The notes below the pieces were generated by a model that did no database searches, was not told the origin of the DNA, and worked only from the letters and a program-made list of their open reading frames with translations. The position numbers and the translations under genes are program-made. Shown here one piece after another: positions 8,038 through 30,077 of a DNA stretch of 35,658 bases (position 1 is its first letter; each line of letters opens with the position of its first letter). Source of the stretch: a virus; the IMG/VR virus record IMGVR_UViG_3300044641_009505, positions 1 through 35,658 of that record. One strand, written 5' to 3'.

Positions 8038-8271
8038 TTACTCCGGGGTGACAGTTGTCGGGTAGAGTAGCGGCAGCACGACCTGCAATGCCAACACGCG
8101 ACCAGGCCACTCCTGACGGGCCCATGCAAGCGCCTCGTTGGCGTCAGTGATCGAGAAGAACATGAGCGGCCCGTCCTCGTCGGAGACGATCTCTCGCGAG
8201 CGCTGATCGACCATCGCCAGCATGTGCTGTGCTGGCTTCATGCGATGGGACGGCGAGACGGTGAAGCTCAC
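8038..8271 (-). CDS. Small hypothetical protein
   Basis: 77 residues from GTG at 8271, which overlaps the stop of the nuclease gene as GTGA. The middle has alternating acidic and aromatic residues (DEDGPLMFFSITDANEALAWARQEW), suggesting a small alpha/beta fold. No family is recognised. The stop lies in the ribosome-binding region of the next gene, so the two are probably translated together. Confidence 0.65.
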   Translation of the reverse strand: MSFTVSPSHRMKPAQHMLAMVDQRSREIVSDEDGPLMFFSITDANEALAWARQEWPGRVLALQVVLPLLYPTTVTPE

Positions 8272-8723
8272 GGTGCGCCCCGCTCGAGTGCTTCCGAGAC
8301 GGTCTCTCCGCGGAACTTCCCCTCGCACAGCTTGATCGCGATGTCCGCCGTCTCCCACGCGCGCCGGAGCAGGGCCGCGCGCCCCATCCCCGCCGCCCGC
8401 ATCAGCGACAGGAACACGTCGAAGTCGCCGCAGCCGGCCGGAACCTGTCCCGCGTTCTGATCGATCAGGAATGCCGCCTGTCCGCGCGTGAGGCGATCGC
8501 CGGGCCCCTTGATCTCGAACCAGAGCACCAGCCCCTTCTGGCGGTGCGCGTAGTAGCGATCCGCAAAGTCGCGCACGGAGCTGCGCTTCGGCGCCTCGAG
8601 GTTCCGCACCGACCAGCCCATCTGCCGCGCCAGGCTATCGCACTGTGCCCCGATCTTGACGTCCGCCACCAGACGCGCTGCCTGCTGCGGCCCTCTGGAC
8701 CGTACCCTCTTCGGCGCGCTCAT
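8268..8723 (-). CDS. VRR-NUC-type nuclease
   Basis: The product has 151 residues. A PD-(D/E)XK core of the VRR-NUC kind is visible: an Asp in RDFADRY (residues 51-57), then beta-strand LVLWFEIKG with Glu70 and Lys72, then DRLTRGQAAF with Gln82. VRR-NUC enzymes are structure-specific nucleases; in phages they commonly sit beside replication genes and are thought to process branched DNA. The gene directly follows the initiator-like gene with a 4-nt overlap, which supports a role in replication or recombination. Exact substrate unknown. Confidence 0.82.
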   Translation of the reverse strand: MSAPKRVRSRGPQQAARLVADVKIGAQCDSLARQMGWSVRNLEAPKRSSVRDFADRYYAHRQKGLVLWFEIKGPGDRLTRGQAAFLIDQNAGQVPAGCGDFDVFLSLMRAAGMGRAALLRRAWETADIAIKLCEGKFRGETVSEALERGAP

Positions 8724-9988
8724 GCGGGGACCCTCACGGCCGTCTCCTGAGAGTCCTCGACAGACGCATCGACGAGCGCGCGGATGGAGCGCCGAGGGAT
8801 CACGCGCAGACAGGGGATCGAGACGGTCCTGAGGTGGCGTGTCATGATCGCCCAGAAATCACCCGACGGATCTGCGTTCCACTCCGACAGACCTGTGCAC
8901 AGTGCGATCGCGATCATCGCCCAGCGCTGGTCTTCGTTCGCCAACGACATCTCGATCGAGCGAGCCGCAGGGCCAACCTGCACGACAGCCTTACCGCACG
9001 CGTGAGCCACCTCGTCAAGGCAATCGGGGTGTCGGAGCGACTGCAGTGCGGCCCGCAGCTGCACCCGCTTGCTCTCGGAGACGCGCTCCGCGGCGTGCAG
9101 CAGCTCGCCGAGCACGTCCGCCGTTCGGCCCTCTTCCGCCGTGAGCGGCCCGTCGAGAATGCTCGGCGAGAGCAGCCTCGCGAGGCGCACGGCGGTCGCG
9201 GTCGACGTCGGCGCACTGCTGCCGCGGACGCGCTCGAGGGCTTTGGCGAACAGGAACCGTCCGGCGCTCCAATCTTCGGGGACACCCGACTCGGCCGAAG
9301 GCGCCGGCGGGGGCGCCTCTGGCGAGCCCGCCGCCGGCGCCGCCGCGGACGGCTCTTGCACTGCTGATAATTCGAGACTGTCAGTACTTCCCCCCTCCGC
9401 GAAGCGGGGGGGAAGTACTGCAGTCTCTCTTCTCTTCTCTTCTGGGACGCTACAAATCGCGGACAGTCCGCGTGACGTCACTGCGACGGTCGGCGTGACG
9501 TCCGCGTGATCTTCGGGGGGTGTCACGCGTGACGTCCGCGCGATTCGGGGAGGGTTCGGGGTTTCGGGTGGTGTCGCCGTGACGTCACGCGGACGGTCGG
9601 CGTGACGTCGCTTCTCACGCGCGACCCTCTGGCGCTCCCGATCCGCGGCCTTCTTGGTCGCGAGCGCGTCGTAGCGCTCCCAGCCGACGACGATCCCGTC
9701 GTCCGTGAACAGCTCCCGGAAGGCCTGGGCGAACGTCCCTTCGTCTCCGCGCCAGCCTGCCCAGAGCTCGATCTCCTCATCGTCCACGTCGCGCACGTCC
9801 CCATCCGGGCGCGCCGTCAGCATCGCGCCCCACACCGCCGAGAGGCACCCGACGACGGCGCGCTTCAGCAGCCAGCTGGGGACCGAGCCTGGCGCGCCCT
9901 CGGCCAGGCGATCCGCCAGCGCACGCACCACGCGTGAGCTCTCGAGCCCGACGTCGATCTGCACATATGCTTCCCGCTTCGCCGGCAT
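8720..9988 (-). CDS. Replication initiator / helicase-loader-like protein carrying an internal origin candidate
   Basis: The product has 422 residues. Residues about 8-115 form a compact domain (YVQIDVGLESSRVVRALADR, then ELWAGWRGDEGTFAQAF) like the N-terminal DNA-binding part of phage replication proteins with a winged-helix fold. Residues about 115-240 are a low-complexity linker of Arg, Thr, Pro and Ala. The C-terminal part is helical. No Walker motif was found, so it is unlikely to be a helicase itself; an initiator or loader is more likely. The linker DNA contains five iterons and a 21-bp-stem palindrome, the same arrangement as lambda O, where the origin lies inside the initiator gene. 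Function is inferred from layout. Confidence 0.65.
   Translation of the reverse strand: MPAKREAYVQIDVGLESSRVVRALADRLAEGAPGSVPSWLLKRAVVGCLSAVWGAMLTARPDGDVRDVDDEEIELWAGWRGDEGTFAQAFRELFTDDGIVVGWERYDALATKKAADRERQRVAREKRRHADRPRDVTATPPETPNPPRIARTSRVTPPEDHADVTPTVAVTSRGLSAICSVPEEKRRETAVLPPRFAEGGSTDSLELSAVQEPSAAAPAAGSPEAPPPAPSAESGVPEDWSAGRFLFAKALERVRGSSAPTSTATAVRLARLLSPSILDGPLTAEEGRTADVLGELLHAAERVSESKRVQLRAALQSLRHPDCLDEVAHACGKAVVQVGPAARSIEMSLANEDQRWAMIAIALCTGLSEWNADPSGDFWAIMTRHLRTVSIPCLRVIPRRSIRALVDASVEDSQETAVRVPA
9374..9427. repeat. Large palindrome (21-bp stem) beside the iterons
   Basis: Left arm 9374-9380 plus 9382-9395 pairs with 9407-9427. The inner arms are CAGTACTTCCCCCC and GGGGGGAAGTACTG, and the outer arms GAGACTG and CAGTCTC, with a single T bulge at 9381. 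The loop contains CCGC-GAA-GCGG. A pyrimidine-rich tract made of TCTTC repeats follows to about 9442. It lies within the replication gene's linker and next to the iteron array. Confidence 0.9.
9471..9609. repeat. Iteron array, candidate origin of replication
   Basis: CGTGACGTC occurs five times in the same orientation, starting at 9471, 9494, 9528, 9578 and 9601. The first two and last two copies form a duplicated 32-bp block (9471-9502 and 9578-9609, 29 of 32 identical). Two copies extend to the perfect palindrome GTGACGTCAC. Iterons inside an initiator gene next to a palindrome are known from lambda-type origins. Use as an origin is inferred. Confidence 0.7.
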
Positions 9989-9990
9989 TC

Positions 9991-10332
9991 CTACTCTCCC
10001 GCGGCCGCTGCGCGGCCGTCGAACGGTGTGGGGGTGTCCTTCAAGGGCAGACCGGTCTGCGTGTCGCGGGCCCGGAGATCCCGCGCGGCGTCGGCGTGCG
10101 AGACCGCCCGCTTCGCGCGGCCGCGGTCCGACACGGCGACGAAGACCTCGCCGTTCTCCATGGTCTCCGCGTCCAGCACGCCGTCAGCGATCATCGCATC
10201 GATCGCTGAGCGCACGTTCCCGCGGACGACGTGCGACCCACCGGAGACGCGCTCGAGCAGCGTCGACACCGGGATCCCCTGGTCGCCGAGGATCTCAAGC
10301 ACGTACGCCCACGTCGGCCGGAGCTTGGTCAC
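9991..10332 (-). CDS. Small winged-helix-like protein
   Basis: 113 residues from GTG at 10332, preceded by GGAGG five bases upstream and overlapping the previous stop as GTGA. Residues about 8-70 have a winged-helix pattern: WAYVLEILGDQGIPVSTLLERV, then HVVRGNVRSAIDAMIADGVL, then a short strand pair (GEVFVAV). The C-terminal third is charged and likely disordered. It precedes the replication initiator by 2 nt, so it may regulate or assist replication. No specific family identified. Confidence 0.72.
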   Translation of the reverse strand: MTKLRPTWAYVLEILGDQGIPVSTLLERVSGGSHVVRGNVRSAIDAMIADGVLDAETMENGEVFVAVSDRGRAKRAVSHADAARDLRARDTQTGLPLKDTPTPFDGRAAAAGE

Positions 10333-10484
10333 GAGGCCCTCCGGGCCCACTGCTGCAGGCGACGCTCGGCCCGCCGGCGCGCGCGCGCGACGCGCCGCAC
10401 ACCGGACGACGGCCAGTACCACCAGATCGCCCCCACTGTCGGGGCGACCAGGGCACAACAGACCAGGACAAGTAGCGTCAGCAT
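10329..10484 (-). CDS. Small single-pass membrane protein
   Basis: 51 residues from ATG at 10484, overlapping the upstream stop by 7 nt. Residues 2-27 form one hydrophobic helix (LTLLVLVCCALVAPTVGAIW), followed by a strongly basic tail with many Arg, so the C-terminus is probably cytoplasmic. There is no good ribosome-binding site; translation likely depends on the upstream gene. Function unknown. Confidence 0.6.
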   Translation of the reverse strand: MLTLLVLVCCALVAPTVGAIWWYWPSSGVRRVARARRRAERRLQQWARRAS

Positions 10485-11365
10485 TGAGGGTGAGGCGCTT
10501 GAGGAGCAGGGGACGAGAGACGCGACAGGGTCTCCCGAGCGGTCCGACGACGGCTGGTCCGGCACGGTGCGCAGATGCGCGCCCGTCCGGCCATCGGCGT
10601 CGGGCACAGCAGGCACGTGCGCACGGGAAGCGGTGGTAACTCCGATGGTTTTCTATTCGGATTTCTATCCTGGGGAGCATTCCGGTGACGCCTGGAGGCC
10701 GTGCTGGGAGGCACGTGCGCCAAGCACAGCACGGGAGGGCGGCCGCGACCTCCCCACGCGATGGGCTCCGAGCAGACCCGACAGACCGGCGTCGGCCGCT
10801 CCGGGTGCTGCTCGTAGTACTTCGCCCGCGCGTAGGCGCGCTTCTTCTCGGCGTGCCGGGCCCGATACTCCCGGTGATAGGCGGCGACCCGATCCGCGTG
10901 CTTCAGCGCGTCCGCCTTCTTCTGAGCCGCGACCCGCTCCGGACGCGCTTGGCGCCACAGGCGCTTCCGCTCAAGCACCTCGCGGTGCGCCTCCGGGTTC
11001 TGCTCGAGCGCGGCCTTGCGGCGCAGCCACTCCTTCTTGAGACGAGACGGATGCCGCTGCTTGTAGCGATCGCCGGCGGCGAGTCGCTCGATCTTCGCGC
11101 ACGCCCCGCACCGCAGCGCCTTGCCCACCGTGCCGACCACCGGCTCCGTACGGCAATCGATGCAGATCCCGCGCCGCTTCCGGTCGCACTGCGGGCAGAA
11201 CGGCACCGTCGCGCCATCGACGAACCGGCTCTCCAACGGCGCACGGCACGGCTTCCCACGGGCGAGCAGTCGCGGGCATAGGGTCTTGTGCATCGCCTGC
11301 GCCGCCCAGGCCGCGTCGCGCTGCTTGCGCGCGTACTCGCGCTGATAGGTCCGCGCGTCGGTCAT
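10478..11365 (-). CDS. Multi-CxxC zinc-finger-like protein
   Basis: The product has 295 residues. Many Cys pairs are spread along the chain: CPQC and CIDC near residues 57-71, CGAC near 86, CRVC near 196, then CLLC and CAPC close to the C-terminus. This suggests three or more zinc-binding sites. Between them (about residues 95-190) lies a long, highly charged helical stretch with repeated Arg/Lys/Ala and Tyr (RAYARAKYYEQHPER), a composition seen in phage zinc-finger and HNH-linked proteins. No HNH catalytic motif is visible. It likely binds nucleic acid. Function unknown. Confidence 0.7.
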   Translation of the reverse strand: MTDARTYQREYARKQRDAAWAAQAMHKTLCPRLLARGKPCRAPLESRFVDGATVPFCPQCDRKRRGICIDCRTEPVVGTVGKALRCGACAKIERLAAGDRYKQRHPSRLKKEWLRRKAALEQNPEAHREVLERKRLWRQARPERVAAQKKADALKHADRVAAYHREYRARHAEKKRAYARAKYYEQHPERPTPVCRVCSEPIAWGGRGRPPVLCLAHVPPSTASRRHRNAPQDRNPNRKPSELPPLPVRTCLLCPTPMAGRARICAPCRTSRRRTARETLSRLSSPAPQAPHPQC

Positions 11366-14853: not shown

Positions 14854-15440
14854 GCGGCACCGTCCTGAGTCGTCCCATACTGGTCTGACGAGGAGTGTAA
14901 ATCGGTCAGAGTGACAATGTCATCGTCCTCCGGGTCGTTGGGATCGTAGCCCTTGAGTTCGATGCACAGAGAGCGTTGGTCCTCTTTCAGACTCTCCCGC
15001 TTCGACATGCGTCGCGCCGGCGCTCTGTCAGACTGTGGCCCCCACATGACCTGAGTGCCCCACTCCTCGATGAGCCAGAAGTTGTGCCCTTCGTCGTACG
15101 ACTTGAGAGTGAACCGGCAGCGGTACCGATTGGCGAAGGCGACGATGATCGGCCGGGGAGTGCTCCACGCCGTGTCGAACTTGAGTTCCGCGCGATCTCC
15201 GTCGACGGTCAGGGATGAGTCGTAGGCATCCCACTTCGTGCCCCAGTTCTCCCGACTCCACGTGCTCCAGTTGCACCGGAAGTCTCGTTCGTCGTCGGCT
15301 CCGAGATCTCCCCGATACATGTGTGGCGGACAGGGGACGAGCTCCTCGAAGGTGAATGCCCCATCCCGAAAGCAGTCCTCTCGGACACGTTCCGCCAATT
15401 CTCGGGGGAACGTGATCGTATTGGTGACGTGGTTGGGCAT
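14850..15440 (-). CDS. YubB/Api92-like ferredoxin-fold protein (DUF1281-like)
   Basis: 196 residues from ATG at 15440, which overlaps the upstream stop as TGATG. The start MPNHVTNTITF, then WGTKWDAYD near residue 68, then FDTAWSTPRPIIVAFANRY, match the Api92/YubB family known from phages and plasmids. The fold is ferredoxin-like and the role is uncertain; members occur near anti-restriction genes. The C-terminal 50 residues are acidic and probably disordered. Confidence 0.78.
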   Translation of the reverse strand: MPNHVTNTITFPRELAERVREDCFRDGAFTFEELVPCPPHMYRGDLGADDERDFRCNWSTWSRENWGTKWDAYDSSLTVDGDRAELKFDTAWSTPRPIIVAFANRYRCRFTLKSYDEGHNFWLIEEWGTQVMWGPQSDRAPARRMSKRESLKEDQRSLCIELKGYDPNDPEDDDIVTLTDLHSSSDQYGTTQDGAA

Positions 15441-17484: not shown

Positions 17485-18221
17485 CAGTCGCGGGGATCGA
17501 CGTTGGAGGACGCGACCGGCTTCTTGGGCTGCTTCACCAGTCGCAGGGCACGCCGAGCGTTCTCTCCGGTTTCCGACGTGAGCGTCACGGACTTTCCGCC
17601 CGATGAGAGCGTGACGGACTCGATCGACTCTCCCTTCTTCGGAGCGAGGTCCGCGACCGCGCGAAGAGCCACCTCCGTAGTCAACTGAGACGTCAGAGCG
17701 CTCATGTCGCGAACGAACGCTTGCTCCTCCACGGAAGCGGTCTTCGGCGGTCGGGGCTCCTCGGTAGACGGGAAAAGATCCGACTGTGCCCGCTCGCCCT
17801 TGTGGTACTTCGCCGCCCATCGATCGAGGTTGACCAGGGCGTCGAGCACGTAGTCCGGGAGGATCGGCGACGCGCTGTCCCCGCTCCGCGCCTCGGCAAC
17901 GTGGGGCGTGTTGATGACCATGGGCGCGGACGATACCGACGTCGACAGGAGCGCCGTCACGACGCACCCGCCGAGCTCGCTATCAGTGCGCGAGACGCCC
18001 CGGATCTCGAGCCGCGTCGGATCCTTGTCCAACCCGAGCGCCTCGGTCGTGACGCCGAGGCACGCGAGCACCCACGGGACGAAAGCGCGCATCGCCGCGA
18101 GGAACTCCGGCGCCGGCTCTTCGCTCGAGGTCAGCTCGTGCGTCTCGTTGCGCTTCGCGTTCGGCCGGTCAGCCCAGCAGAGCGTGACCTGCGATCCGTC
18201 CCACTTGATCTTAGAGTACAT
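17484..18221 (-). CDS. Conserved early phage protein of unknown function
   Basis: 245 residues from ATG at 18221. The N-terminal 150 residues begin with a strand pair (KIKWDGSQVTLCWA), then helix EPAPEFLAAMRAFVPWVLACLG, then CVVTALLSTSVSSAPMVINTP. This looks like a family I recall from phage early regions, without known function. Residues about 150-245 are a Lys/Ser/Thr/Glu-rich tail. It precedes the excisionase-like gene, with a 1-nt overlap. Confidence 0.7.
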   Translation of the reverse strand: MYSKIKWDGSQVTLCWADRPNAKRNETHELTSSEEPAPEFLAAMRAFVPWVLACLGVTTEALGLDKDPTRLEIRGVSRTDSELGGCVVTALLSTSVSSAPMVINTPHVAEARSGDSASPILPDYVLDALVNLDRWAAKYHKGERAQSDLFPSTEEPRPPKTASVEEQAFVRDMSALTSQLTTEVALRAVADLAPKKGESIESVTLSSGGKSVTLTSETGENARRALRLVKQPKKPVASSNVDPRD

Positions 18222-18222
18222 C

Positions 18223-18405
18223 TTAGATCTGTGAGAGAGCCGAATCTCCCCACCACAGCTCTCGCGCGATGCCGTTAGCATCCTTGTACCGGATGAAGTA
18301 CTGATCCTCTCCGGCAGCAAACTCCGCTCGGCCAATCACCTTGCCGCTCTCGCCGCTGCAGTCGATGAGGACTGTATCCAGCACTTCGAAACGGAACTTG
18401 TGCAT
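18223..18405 (-). CDS. Small SH3/KOW-like protein
   Basis: 60 residues from ATG at 18405, with GGAG five bases before it. The pattern FRFEVLDTVLID, SGKVIGRAEF, QYFIRYKD, GIARELWWGDSAL is that of a small five-stranded SH3-like barrel found in many phage early regions. It may bind nucleic acid or protein. The gene ends one base before the next ATG. Confidence 0.7.
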   Translation of the reverse strand: MHKFRFEVLDTVLIDCSGESGKVIGRAEFAAGEDQYFIRYKDANGIARELWWGDSALSQI

Positions 18406-18439
18406 CAGGACTCCTGAATGGTGTAGATAGGCGACTGGC

Positions 18440-19188: not shown

Positions 19189-19386
19189 CTACGCCACCTG
19201 CGACACTTCCACGGACGTCTCCAAGGGCGCCCAGCGTCGGGCCTGCTTCTCGATCACGCCGGCCAGGAGCGCGCTCACGGTGGTGTCGCGCGCCTCGGCG
19301 ACCCTCACCGCGCGCGCGTGCGCCTCGGGCAGCAGGGCGATCGAGACCGACACGCGTCTCTTGTCAGGCTTGGCGACTCGGGGCAT
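19189..19386 (-). CDS. Ribbon-helix-helix regulator
   Basis: 65 residues. The order is that of a CopG/Arc-type ribbon-helix-helix: strand KRRVSVSIALL, helix PEAHARAVRVAEARD, turn, helix TVSALLAGVIEKQARRW. These proteins dimerise and insert a two-stranded ribbon into the major groove. It is the first gene of the leftward operon and is divergent from an HTH gene, so it is a candidate early repressor, possibly acting on the palindrome at 19428-19439 (inference). No ribosome-binding site is visible. Confidence 0.8.
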   Translation of the reverse strand: MPRVAKPDKRRVSVSIALLPEAHARAVRVAEARDTTVSALLAGVIEKQARRWAPLETSVEVSQVA

Positions 19387-19427
19387 TGTTGGGCGTCGGT
19401 GGATGAAAGGATACGCATATATCCCGC

Positions 19428-19439
19428 ATTCGCCCGAAT
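19428..19439. promoter_or_regulatory. Palindromic operator candidate
   Basis: ATTCG-CC-CGAAT is a perfect inverted repeat. It touches the -10 hexamer and covers the expected start point of the leftward promoter, where a bound repressor would block transcription. Either divergent regulator could bind it. Confidence 0.55.
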
Positions 19440-19466
19440 CGTACCCGAGAATGCCTGAGTCGTCAA
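19438..19466 (-). promoter_or_regulatory. Leftward sigma70-like promoter
   Basis: On the minus strand TTGACG (19466-19461) and TACGAT (19443-19438) are separated by exactly 17 bases. Each hexamer matches the consensus at four or five of six positions. The start point would be near 19431, giving a 45-nt leader before the ribbon-helix-helix gene. It would drive the long leftward operon. Confidence 0.6.
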
Positions 19467-27138: not shown

Positions 27139-30077
27139 GCCACGCTCACGAACGCCAAGGTGGGGTCGAGACTGCCGACCGTGATGTCTTCCGGCGCGAG
27201 GTCGAAGCTGTAGCCGATCTCGACGATGTCGGTCCAGCGATCGACGCCAAGCTCGGGTGTGAACACGCGCACCTGCTGGCCGATGTCCGGCGGACCGAAC
27301 GCATCGATGAGGCGCTGCATCGCGACGCCCGTGAGCCGCAGCCGCTCGGGGTTCGAGCGGGCGCGCAGCACCGCGCTCCCCGCCTGGTGCGGCAGGTTGC
27401 TGTGCCCGCCTGGCGTGAAGGGGACATCGGCATCGGCCGACAGCGTGAGCATCGCCCAGCGGAGCCGCATATCGAACTCCATGGTGCCGAGGTCCTTCTC
27501 GGCGCTGATCTGCATGTGTCGGAAGCCCGTCGCGGTCAGGGTTTCCGTGACGTTCAGCGTCGAGTGGATCGAGCCGAACTCGTCGCCCGCGTCGGGCAGC
27601 GCGACCAGCGTCAGCGCGGAGATCGGCGTGAAGCCGGCGGTCGGCGACCCAATGGTGATGCGCCAGCGGACCAGATTGCTGGCCTGCCGGACGCCCCAGG
27701 CGGTCACGCCTGCCTTCGCGCGGAGGGTGACGCTCGCCGGCGGCGTGACGCGGAACTGCGCGGGCGTCGATCGTGCGATCACCTGCAGCGCGGCGCCCAC
27801 GCCGAGCGTGTCCAGCTGCAGCGTCGTCGGCGAGCCGGGCTGATCCTCGGCGAGATCGCGCACACGAACGACGCGGATGACGCGACCGACGGCGAGCGCC
27901 CCCACGGTCGGCGCGTGCAACGCCACCGTGGCCTCGCCGGTCGCCGACGTGGTCAGCTGTGCAGACCCGAACAGCGTCTCGCCTTCGAGGCGGATCGTAC
28001 CGCCGGCGGGGAGCGCGTTGGCGGTGATCACCCGAAGCCGGATCGTCGTCGCCGAGACGGCCGCGCCCAGCGGCAGCACCAGATCGGCATTTGCGCTCCA
28101 CGACGGCGTGACGCCGACGCCGATCGCCTGCACGATGGCTGGCGTAATCAGCACATCGGCCTCTCCGTTGGCGTCCCACGCGGGCGCGCTCTGCACGGTG
28201 TAGGTCCGCGTCGTCGAGGTCCCGTAGGCGAAGCTGCCGGTCAGGAAGAGCGGAGGCGGGGCCCCCGGCAGCGAAATCTGCGCCGGCGGGAAGCGGTTGC
28301 CGCCGAAGTCGATGCTGATGACGAAGGCGCCCGCGGTGTAGCCGCCCACGACCGTGCCGTCGGTCGTGATCTGCACCGTCTGCGGCACGAACGACGTGCC
28401 GAAGCCGTCATTGACGACCTGATAGGTCCGCCACGCCTCGGTGACCGACACCAGCGTGCCGGGCGCGAGATCGATCGACAGCGGTGCGACGCCAAGGGAC
28501 GTCACGCCCGCGCCGGGGTTAGGCGCGTTGATCACCGTCGCGAACGCCGTGAAGCCCTCCTGCACGCCGATGGTCTGCCCGATGGCGAGCGACGGCGTGA
28601 CCGGCAATCCGCCGAGCGTCACCGTGCCCGCGCCCGCCGCCTGGGCGCCGGAGGCGACGGTGTTGCGCACCGTGCCATCCGGGAAGCGGATCGGCAGGCG
28701 GGTCCCGTCCGCGATGCCGCCCGCTGGCACGACCGGGGTCACGCTGACCGTCACGATCCCCGCGCTGTTGCCCACCCCGGGCCCGGTGGTGGCCACCCAC
28801 GCGGGCGCGCGCACCGCGTCCCCGCGGAAGAGCGGGGCACCGGGCGGCAACCCCTCAAGCTCGAGCACGGCCGCGCCCGCCGCGGCGGCGACGCGCACGG
28901 TGCCCTCGAGCAGCGGTGGCTCGCTGCGCGCGCGGGCGGTGAGCCGCCCGTTCGCACCGATGCGCGTCCACCCCGTGGCCCCGTCGCGGAAGTCGCCATT
29001 GCCGATCCCATTCCACTCCGTGCGCGACTTGGCGACGGTGGCCTTGCGCACGACGCGCCCGCGCGGACGCGCCAGTGCCGAGGGACTCGCGAGCTCGGTC
29101 AGGATGGCGCCGGCGGTATCGCGCACCAGGCGCACGAGGTTGCCCACGGGCAGCGGCCGCGCGACCTGCACCGCTTGGTCGACGACGCGACTGGCGAGGA
29201 TCGGCAGGGCGGTGCCGTCGGCCAGCATGATCGCATTGCCCACGAACTGCCCGTCCTCGACGAGCGGGCCGTCCCCACCCGACGGATCGGCGAGCGTGAG
29301 CCACGACGGCGACCCAGTCGTCGCGCTGGTGATCTGCCAGACCGTGAGCCCCATCGTCTGCCCGTTGTCGGCGACGGGCAGCACGACCGAGCACGCCTCG
29401 TCGAGACTCGCGCGGCGGGACGTCACCCGCACGATGGGCCCCTGATAGAGCGGGAGGGGCGGGCGCGACGAGCGCACCGCGCGCAGGTCGAGCCAGAACC
29501 CGCGGAGCTGCCCCGTCGTCGTCAGGTCGGGGCGGAGCACGAGCTGCTGCCGCGTCGCGCGCTCGACCGCGCTGAGGTACTGCTCATAGGTCCACTGATC
29601 GATCACGCCGACGTCGATCACACCGGTGAAGCGCACGTCGCCGACGCCGAGGAGCCAGGAGAAGCCGTCGGGGACGCGCCCGGGCAGCACGAACTGGGCG
29701 AGCCCCGCCCGCACGGTCTGCGGCTCAGGGGTGAAGCGATAGAGGTCGCTGTCGCCGGCGCGCGCCTGGCGAATGAAGCCACAGCGCGCGAGCTGCGAGC
29801 GGAGCGGGCTGAGGGTCACACTCACCCGGTCCGATCCGGTCGTCTCCTCGATGCCCTCGACGAACCACCAGCTGCGGCCGCGGCGGGGGTGATCGACCTC
29901 GACGCACACGCCCTCCTCGAGCTGGGCGTCGCGCAGCTGCTGGGCCGTGCACGTGAAGCTGCCGCTCGACGGCGCGCCGCTGGCGGCCTTGAAGCTGCCC
30001 TGCAGGCCGGACAGCGTGCCCAGCGAGACCGCGCCGACGACGCACGGCACCCGGTCGAAGATCTTGAGGATGCTCAT
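27135..30077 (-). CDS. Large tail-tip/hub protein (Tal-like)
   Basis: 980 residues, starting on the TGATG overlap with the tape-measure stop. Residues about 1-220 have a hub-like strand pattern (SFTCTAQQLRDAQLEEGVCV, WWFVEGIEETTGSDRVSVTL). Residues about 350-780 are long tracts of Val, Thr, Gly and Ala with repeated strands, perhaps stacked Ig or carbohydrate-binding domains, including NGDFRDGATGWTRIGANG near 360. The last 200 residues hold a hydrophilic domain with VRVFTPELGVDRWTDIVEIG. Size and place after the tape measure suggest the central tail-tip or host-contact protein. Confidence 0.6.
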   Translation of the reverse strand: MSILKIFDRVPCVVGAVSLGTLSGLQGSFKAASGAPSSGSFTCTAQQLRDAQLEEGVCVEVDHPRRGRSWWFVEGIEETTGSDRVSVTLSPLRSQLARCGFIRQARAGDSDLYRFTPEPQTVRAGLAQFVLPGRVPDGFSWLLGVGDVRFTGVIDVGVIDQWTYEQYLSAVERATRQQLVLRPDLTTTGQLRGFWLDLRAVRSSRPPLPLYQGPIVRVTSRRASLDEACSVVLPVADNGQTMGLTVWQITSATTGSPSWLTLADPSGGDGPLVEDGQFVGNAIMLADGTALPILASRVVDQAVQVARPLPVGNLVRLVRDTAGAILTELASPSALARPRGRVVRKATVAKSRTEWNGIGNGDFRDGATGWTRIGANGRLTARARSEPPLLEGTVRVAAAAGAAVLELEGLPPGAPLFRGDAVRAPAWVATTGPGVGNSAGIVTVSVTPVVPAGGIADGTRLPIRFPDGTVRNTVASGAQAAGAGTVTLGGLPVTPSLAIGQTIGVQEGFTAFATVINAPNPGAGVTSLGVAPLSIDLAPGTLVSVTEAWRTYQVVNDGFGTSFVPQTVQITTDGTVVGGYTAGAFVISIDFGGNRFPPAQISLPGAPPPLFLTGSFAYGTSTTRTYTVQSAPAWDANGEADVLITPAIVQAIGVGVTPSWSANADLVLPLGAAVSATTIRLRVITANALPAGGTIRLEGETLFGSAQLTTSATGEATVALHAPTVGALAVGRVIRVVRVRDLAEDQPGSPTTLQLDTLGVGAALQVIARSTPAQFRVTPPASVTLRAKAGVTAWGVRQASNLVRWRITIGSPTAGFTPISALTLVALPDAGDEFGSIHSTLNVTETLTATGFRHMQISAEKDLGTMEFDMRLRWAMLTLSADADVPFTPGGHSNLPHQAGSAVLRARSNPERLRLTGVAMQRLIDAFGPPDIGQQVRVFTPELGVDRWTDIVEIGYSFDLAPEDITVGSLDPTLAFVSVA

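Follow-up and report, generated by a model that had tools for sequence, protein, structure and literature searches.

In a 35,658-nucleotide stretch of viral DNA (hereafter the window), a replication initiator gene carries a cluster of short repeats (iterons) within its own reading frame, next to a hairpin and a pyrimidine tract. Read jointly, these features make it very probable that positions 9374-9609 are a theta-type origin of replication inside the initiator gene, with iteron binding, opening of the tract and helicase loading as the steps that we infer. The anatomy resembles that of lambda O, combined with an iteron that was not found in the open PMC literature. An origin placed as in lambda O had been proposed in the initial annotation, and the proposal is supported by sequence and structure predictions. 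The initiator match, predicted fold, domain layout, DNA-level selection and low-GC, strand-asymmetric tract all agree with it, a neighbouring loader or helicase being the one computable prediction that did not hold.

The other genes in the window include those for a portal, a capsid, a terminase small subunit and an integrase, and the virus is therefore a temperate tailed phage. No helicase or loader gene was recognized among the ORFs tested near the initiator. The 229-aa ORF in the upstream flank (9991-10680) weakly matches a winged helix, and the downstream flank (8268-8723) holds a VRR-NUC-like ORF whose match (E 0.03) is below the cut-off.

An initiator gene with iterons selected as DNA

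The initiator matches PHROG 9474, "replication initiation protein", over aa 42-139 (profile search, E 1.9e-10). Its top viral fold match is Replisome organizer (E 3.9e-4, prob 1.00), and a primosomal protein is also among the best viral fold matches. Nothing significant was found against PDB folds, and PDB sequences gave a single weak match. The AlphaFold2 model divides the protein into four parts (Table 1), of which the first is called winged-helix-like from its order of helices and strands. The arginine-rich helix upstream of the iterons is a plausible, if unproven, recognition element in this model. The C-terminal domain, which had no family match, is presumed to be the partner for helicase loading. 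The viral contigs searched contained no close relatives of the protein, a comparison with 50,697 phages gave one weak match, and no near-identical DNA to this locus was found in phages.

All five iterons that had been annotated are present at exactly those positions on the plus strand. A further copy of CGTGACGTC, on the opposite strand at 9581, completes a perfect CGTGACGTCACG palindrome at 9578-9589. Outside the cluster, the 35.7 kb searched contain a single copy, at 28498. These seven copies compare with a chance mean of 1.57, at least seven being reached in 0 of 100 shuffles, and six of them are packed into 139 bp. The iterons had been assigned to the linker of the 422-residue protein; this holds for four of the five, while the copy at 9601 falls in the part that encodes the helix. 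Successive iterons are spaced by 23, 34, 50 and 23 bp.

Within the 1.27-kb initiator gene, the 8-mer GTGACGTC occurs seven times on the two strands against a mean of 0.95 under synonymous-codon permutation, and none of 20,000 permutations reaches seven. The iterons are also read in all three frames on the coding strand, as DVT, TSR and RRHA. Three-frame use and the permutation result together show that selection acts on the DNA sequence of the repeat; a repeat kept for its amino acids would not give such a pattern.

Table 1. Features of the initiator gene and its putative origin (window coordinates)
Feature	Position	Strand	Remarks
Replication initiator gene, 422 aa	8720..9988	-	ATG at 9988; ORF, PHROG match, fold match
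C-terminal helical domain, aa 238-411	8756..9276	-	Predicted helices of low-to-medium confidence (AlphaFold2)
Disordered linker, aa 131-237	9277..9598	-	pLDDT mostly <50; four of the five iterons and the candidate unwinding region lie here
Hairpin, 21 bp, one bulge	9374..9427		Beyond the pyrimidine tract; DNA fold -25.5 kcal/mol, z -9.9
Pyrimidine tract TCTCTCTTCTCTTCTCTTCT, 20 nt	9424..9443		Purine run on the coding strand, translated as EEKRRE
Iteron, full GTGACGTCAC palindrome	9471..9481		VTSR frame
Iteron CGTGACGTC	9494..9502		DVT frame
Iteron CGTGACGTC	9528..9536		TSR frame
Palindromic iteron CGTGACGTCACG	9578..9589		DVT frame
Iteron CGTGACGTC	9601..9609		RRHA frame
Single continuous helix, aa 103-130	9599..9682	-	AlphaFold2 pLDDT about 90 to residue 130
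Basic stretch KKAADRERQRVAREKRR, aa 112-128	9605-9655	-	Within the helix of aa 103-130; candidate recognition helix, function inferred
N-terminal domain, aa 7-102, winged-helix-like	9683..9970	-	AlphaFold2 pLDDT about 78-97; L129, L022 and L307 align here

Hairpin, pyrimidine tract and low-GC stretch

The long-stemmed palindrome and the pyrimidine tract that had been reported beside the iterons are both there. The hairpin, far stabler than shuffled sequence, has an RNA fold of -43.7 for the coding strand and is possibly a boundary or loading structure. No comparable hairpin was found in most of the related loci, so it is not general in the class described below. Perfect 9-bp stems with 4-nt loops follow the iterons in L057, L183 and L194.

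No other homopurine/homopyrimidine run in the window reaches 14 nt. The tract sits at a local GC minimum (0.54 per 100 bp against a mean of 0.70), within the lowest 0.1%. Together with the low-GC stretch that begins at about 9356, it is a candidate unwinding element. The lowest GC values of the whole window (about 0.47-0.54) are found away from this locus, at 18203-18430, 14865-14960 and 19386-19460, which are possibly intergenic control regions.

The palindrome is shared by a widespread class of initiators

A first loose scan with pairs of CGTGACGTC was too unspecific, and was replaced by a search for two GTGACGTCAC palindromes 1-31 nt apart, with every spacing from 11 to 41 allowed and a palindrome with a swapped (scrambled) core, GTGAGCTCAC, as the control. 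Close pairs were found in 99 viral-contig stretches for GTGACGTCAC versus one for GTGAGCTCAC, and an ORF spans the sites in about three quarters of the 99. After obvious non-initiator frames had been removed, the window ORF and most distinct viral matches were aligned (56 ORFs). Among these simple ORF calls, most of which were chosen because they hold GTGACGTCAC, the majority consensus is mostly unresolved except for AxRxRRxRxR followed by DVT...VTSxDVT, and the latter part is the iterons themselves.

Many of the 56 ORFs match PHROGs for replication initiation, O-like, primosomal or DnaD-like loader proteins. The most-matched family covers 19 of them, and two others cover 18 and 16. Some match the O-like PHROGs 345 and 678, unlike the window protein. 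Sites occur in both stop-free frames in 28 of 50 ORFs. At 11 of 31 loci an ORF downstream encodes a nucleotide-binding motif, and of the nine neighbours that were scanned after preselection by this motif from the 31 loci, seven are a DnaB-like helicase, a DnaC-like loader or a primase/helicase.

Judged by sequence, the window initiator belongs to a widespread class that shares the GTGACGTCAC palindrome despite very dissimilar proteins. The recurrence of this word, at helical-turn spacings, in dozens of dissimilar initiator genes points to a widespread recognition scheme. A description of it was not found in the open PMC literature, where none of the matches listed was a phage paper with GTGACGTCAC. 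It had been suggested that this is an undescribed initiator-origin pair: its iteron was not found in the open PMC literature searched, and the pair itself is better read as one member of the class.

Most of the set-aside ORFs with GTGACGTCAC pairs are unrelated, tape-measure ORFs among them, so an occurrence of the word does not by itself prove an origin. Degenerate protein-coding pattern searches gave almost no new class members.

Iteron spacing and a GC dip beside the sites

Successive palindrome centres in initiator ORFs are nearly all 10-12, 20-24 or 30-36 bp apart. Spacings of 13-19 or 25-29 bp account for 0 of 95 in initiators versus 35 of 160 in non-initiator matches (Fisher 2e-8, a value inflated by shared ancestry, since relatives are not fully independent). 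The split into initiators and others was made by hand before the spacings were tabulated. The two gaps are empty across many dissimilar initiator proteins. Averaged over the class, GC drops from about 0.62 and reaches 0.49 at 25-50 nt beyond the final iteron, where the A content of the coding strand is 0.36. By analogy with lambda, the spacing classes and the GC dip fit a phased nucleoprotein array beside a melting tract.

As we picture it, the initiator would bind the GTGACGTC(AC) iterons as an array with steps close to full turns of the helix. DNA bending, together with supercoiling, would then open the adjoining pyrimidine/low-GC tract, at about 9356-9460, and the C-terminal domain, held on a flexible linker, would help to load a DnaB-type helicase. 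The 50-bp spacing in the window falls off the common classes and counts against the origin reading. For most environmental phages no origin is known. A DNA word with a clustered spacing rule, present in dissimilar initiator genes, would allow origins to be called from sequence in many uncultured phages, and would reveal how an initiator and its origin keep in step when both change rapidly.

A basic helix as a possible determinant of iteron choice

In 18 winged-helix-type initiators, the basic stretch contains a nearly invariant R119 and an invariant R124. Another family of initiators has no winged helix; for some of them, such as L078, L381 and L384, the match to O-like or primosomal profiles is confined to the later part of the profile. 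Here a predicted helix of about 37 residues ends in the same kind of basic stretch, and repeats again lie beside it.

The N-termini of L380 and L381 are 83% identical and those of L382 and L384 80%, and in both pairs the basic stretch and the iteron differ. Because nearly identical N-termini with different basic stretches carry different repeats, these sequences suggest that the basic helix helps to choose the iteron site. L382 and L398 have similar basic stretches and different repeats, which counts against such a role. The association of the basic motif with GTKACG half-sites was not significant (4/11 vs 6/34, p 0.23; family-selected sample, crude regular expression). We also considered the basic stretch as a better predictor of iteron sameness than the N-terminus in the winged-helix-less family, and it is no better (AUC 0.67, permutation p 0.06, vs 0.66, p 0.03).

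We tentatively extend this to a scheme that may well prove wrong: many phage initiators might read their origin by a short arginine-rich helix (core E-R-x-x-x-x-R), in place of a winged helix or alongside one, on CRE-like palindromes with an ACGT core, in the manner of bZIP proteins. Since helix and sites are encoded side by side in one gene, a single recombination event could swap both, and the pair would then be a self-contained, exchangeable initiator-origin cassette.

CREB studies use GTGACGTCAC as the CRE (PMC4555227), and this makes a comparison with bZIP proteins tempting. The likeness is that a long arginine-rich helix is predicted in the window phage protein, next to ACGT-core sites in its gene, and we treat it as an analogy only. 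The window protein has no bZIP Pfam match at E<=1, no bZIP family is among the 25 Pfam families listed for the 56 class members, and neither the invariant Asn nor a leucine zipper was recognized by eye in the window phage protein. If the basic helix is truly the specificity element, phage origins would be recognized by a simple, testable code, and CRE recognition would have a counterpart in prokaryotes.

Comparison with lambda and other named phages

Lambda O consists of an N-terminal DNA-binding domain, a linker and a C-terminal partner domain, and the predicted layout of the window protein is similar. In lambda, iterons and an AT-rich stretch of 38-40 bp lie inside gene O (PMC5043065, PMC3349717), and the window likewise has iterons within the initiator gene adjoining an apparently easily melted stretch. 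The iterons differ in sequence and in size, lambda having 18-19-bp repeats and the window class palindromes of about 8-12 bp. Unlike in lambda, the sites of the window class are clustered at 11/22/33-bp spacings, and a basic helix lies between the N-terminal domain and the iterons of the window protein. Homology to lambda O was not detected, as the window protein matched no O-like PHROG or Pfam family, and no P-like loader was found near its gene.

Named phages picked up by protein similarity have linker repeats as well. In epsilon15 (Salmonella, NP_848250.1), phiPSA1 (Pseudomonas) and BUCT711 (Klebsiella), the repeats stand beside a AGAGAAGAGAAGA purine tract, which is the tract type of the window, and AGAGAAGA tracts similar to that of the window are found there. 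These phages differ in their repeat (TGTCCGC/GCGGACA) and in a basic stretch of the ADRKRxxRK type. Their records name a replication or replication initiation protein, with no origin annotated in the stretches examined. The window layout also recurs in the P. aeruginosa phages vB_PaeS-D14H and YMC11/07/P54 and in Silvergun (Acinetobacter), with a basic stretch STxRVxAxRxRKK and with GTAACG half-sites versus GTGACG in the window class. In D14H and P54, the initiator gene is directly upstream of a DnaB gene.

Alternative explanations

The sites could instead be operators, where the initiator or a phage repressor binds the palindromes to stop transcription of the gene and replication starts elsewhere. 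As a palindrome, GTGACGTCAC is simple, and bacterial chromosomes also carry GTGACGTCAC pairs outside initiators, including at intergenic sites, which makes operators a real alternative in single cases. For the window we consider them unlikely, given that in dozens of initiators the sites lie within the reading frame and far from the start codon, that helical-turn spacings are found only in initiators, and that a low-GC, A-rich dip lies on one side of the sites. Autoregulation and origin function could coexist.

It is very improbable that the hairpin, tract and iterons came into the linker as a small mobile or recombination element, or as a packaging or defence target. In favour of such a block, the 21-bp hairpin stands out and has no counterpart in most related loci. 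Against it, the block is present once in the window, its iterons are interleaved with coding sequence in varied frames and arrangements without a repeated unit, and sharing in viral contigs is mainly via initiator genes. Even harder to sustain is a protein-level feature, in which a low-complexity linker happens to reuse DVT/VTS codons. The linker is of low complexity and predicted to be disordered, but the three frames in the window, the two stop-free frames in over half of the relatives and the synonymous permutations contradict this explanation.

Iteron turnover and further occurrences

The initial annotation had asked whether the iterons persist in relatives, and the outcome is mixed but favourable. 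In L022 and L307, whose N-terminal region is about 28% identical to that of the window protein, the iterons are retained and occupy more than one frame. At the same place, L129 and L320 (35-37% identity over 65-69 residues) contain repeats of another sequence, GAAYGCATTC and AGCAATGC respectively, so the iteron turns over. The named phages differ in the same way: besides TGTCCGC in epsilon15, phiPSA1 and BUCT711, the repeats are GTAACG in the two P. aeruginosa phages and Silvergun, CGTTACGTAACG in Bradyrhizobium ppBjS10J-1 and GGTAACG in Xanthomonas phages. Linker repeats are therefore general while their sequence changes.

Several further loci carry GTGACGTCAC pairs in other settings. L258, L272, L314 and L319 (Mycobacterium) and several Streptomyces loci appear to be non-phage chromosomal contexts. 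Those from Mycobacterium resemble one another in arrangement and may serve an uncharacterised regulator as operators. On Bacteroidota MAG contigs (L205, L217, L219, L233, L234) the pairs are 21 bp apart. They recur across several contigs from two MAGs and, by simple calls, fall outside ORFs; L219 has four pairs at 42-bp steps. Among the winged-helix-less initiators, L396, L399 and L400 contain GTGACG/CGTCAC half-sites without the composite palindrome, and in L396 and L399 these follow each other at about 10-bp steps, a different arrangement of the same half-site.
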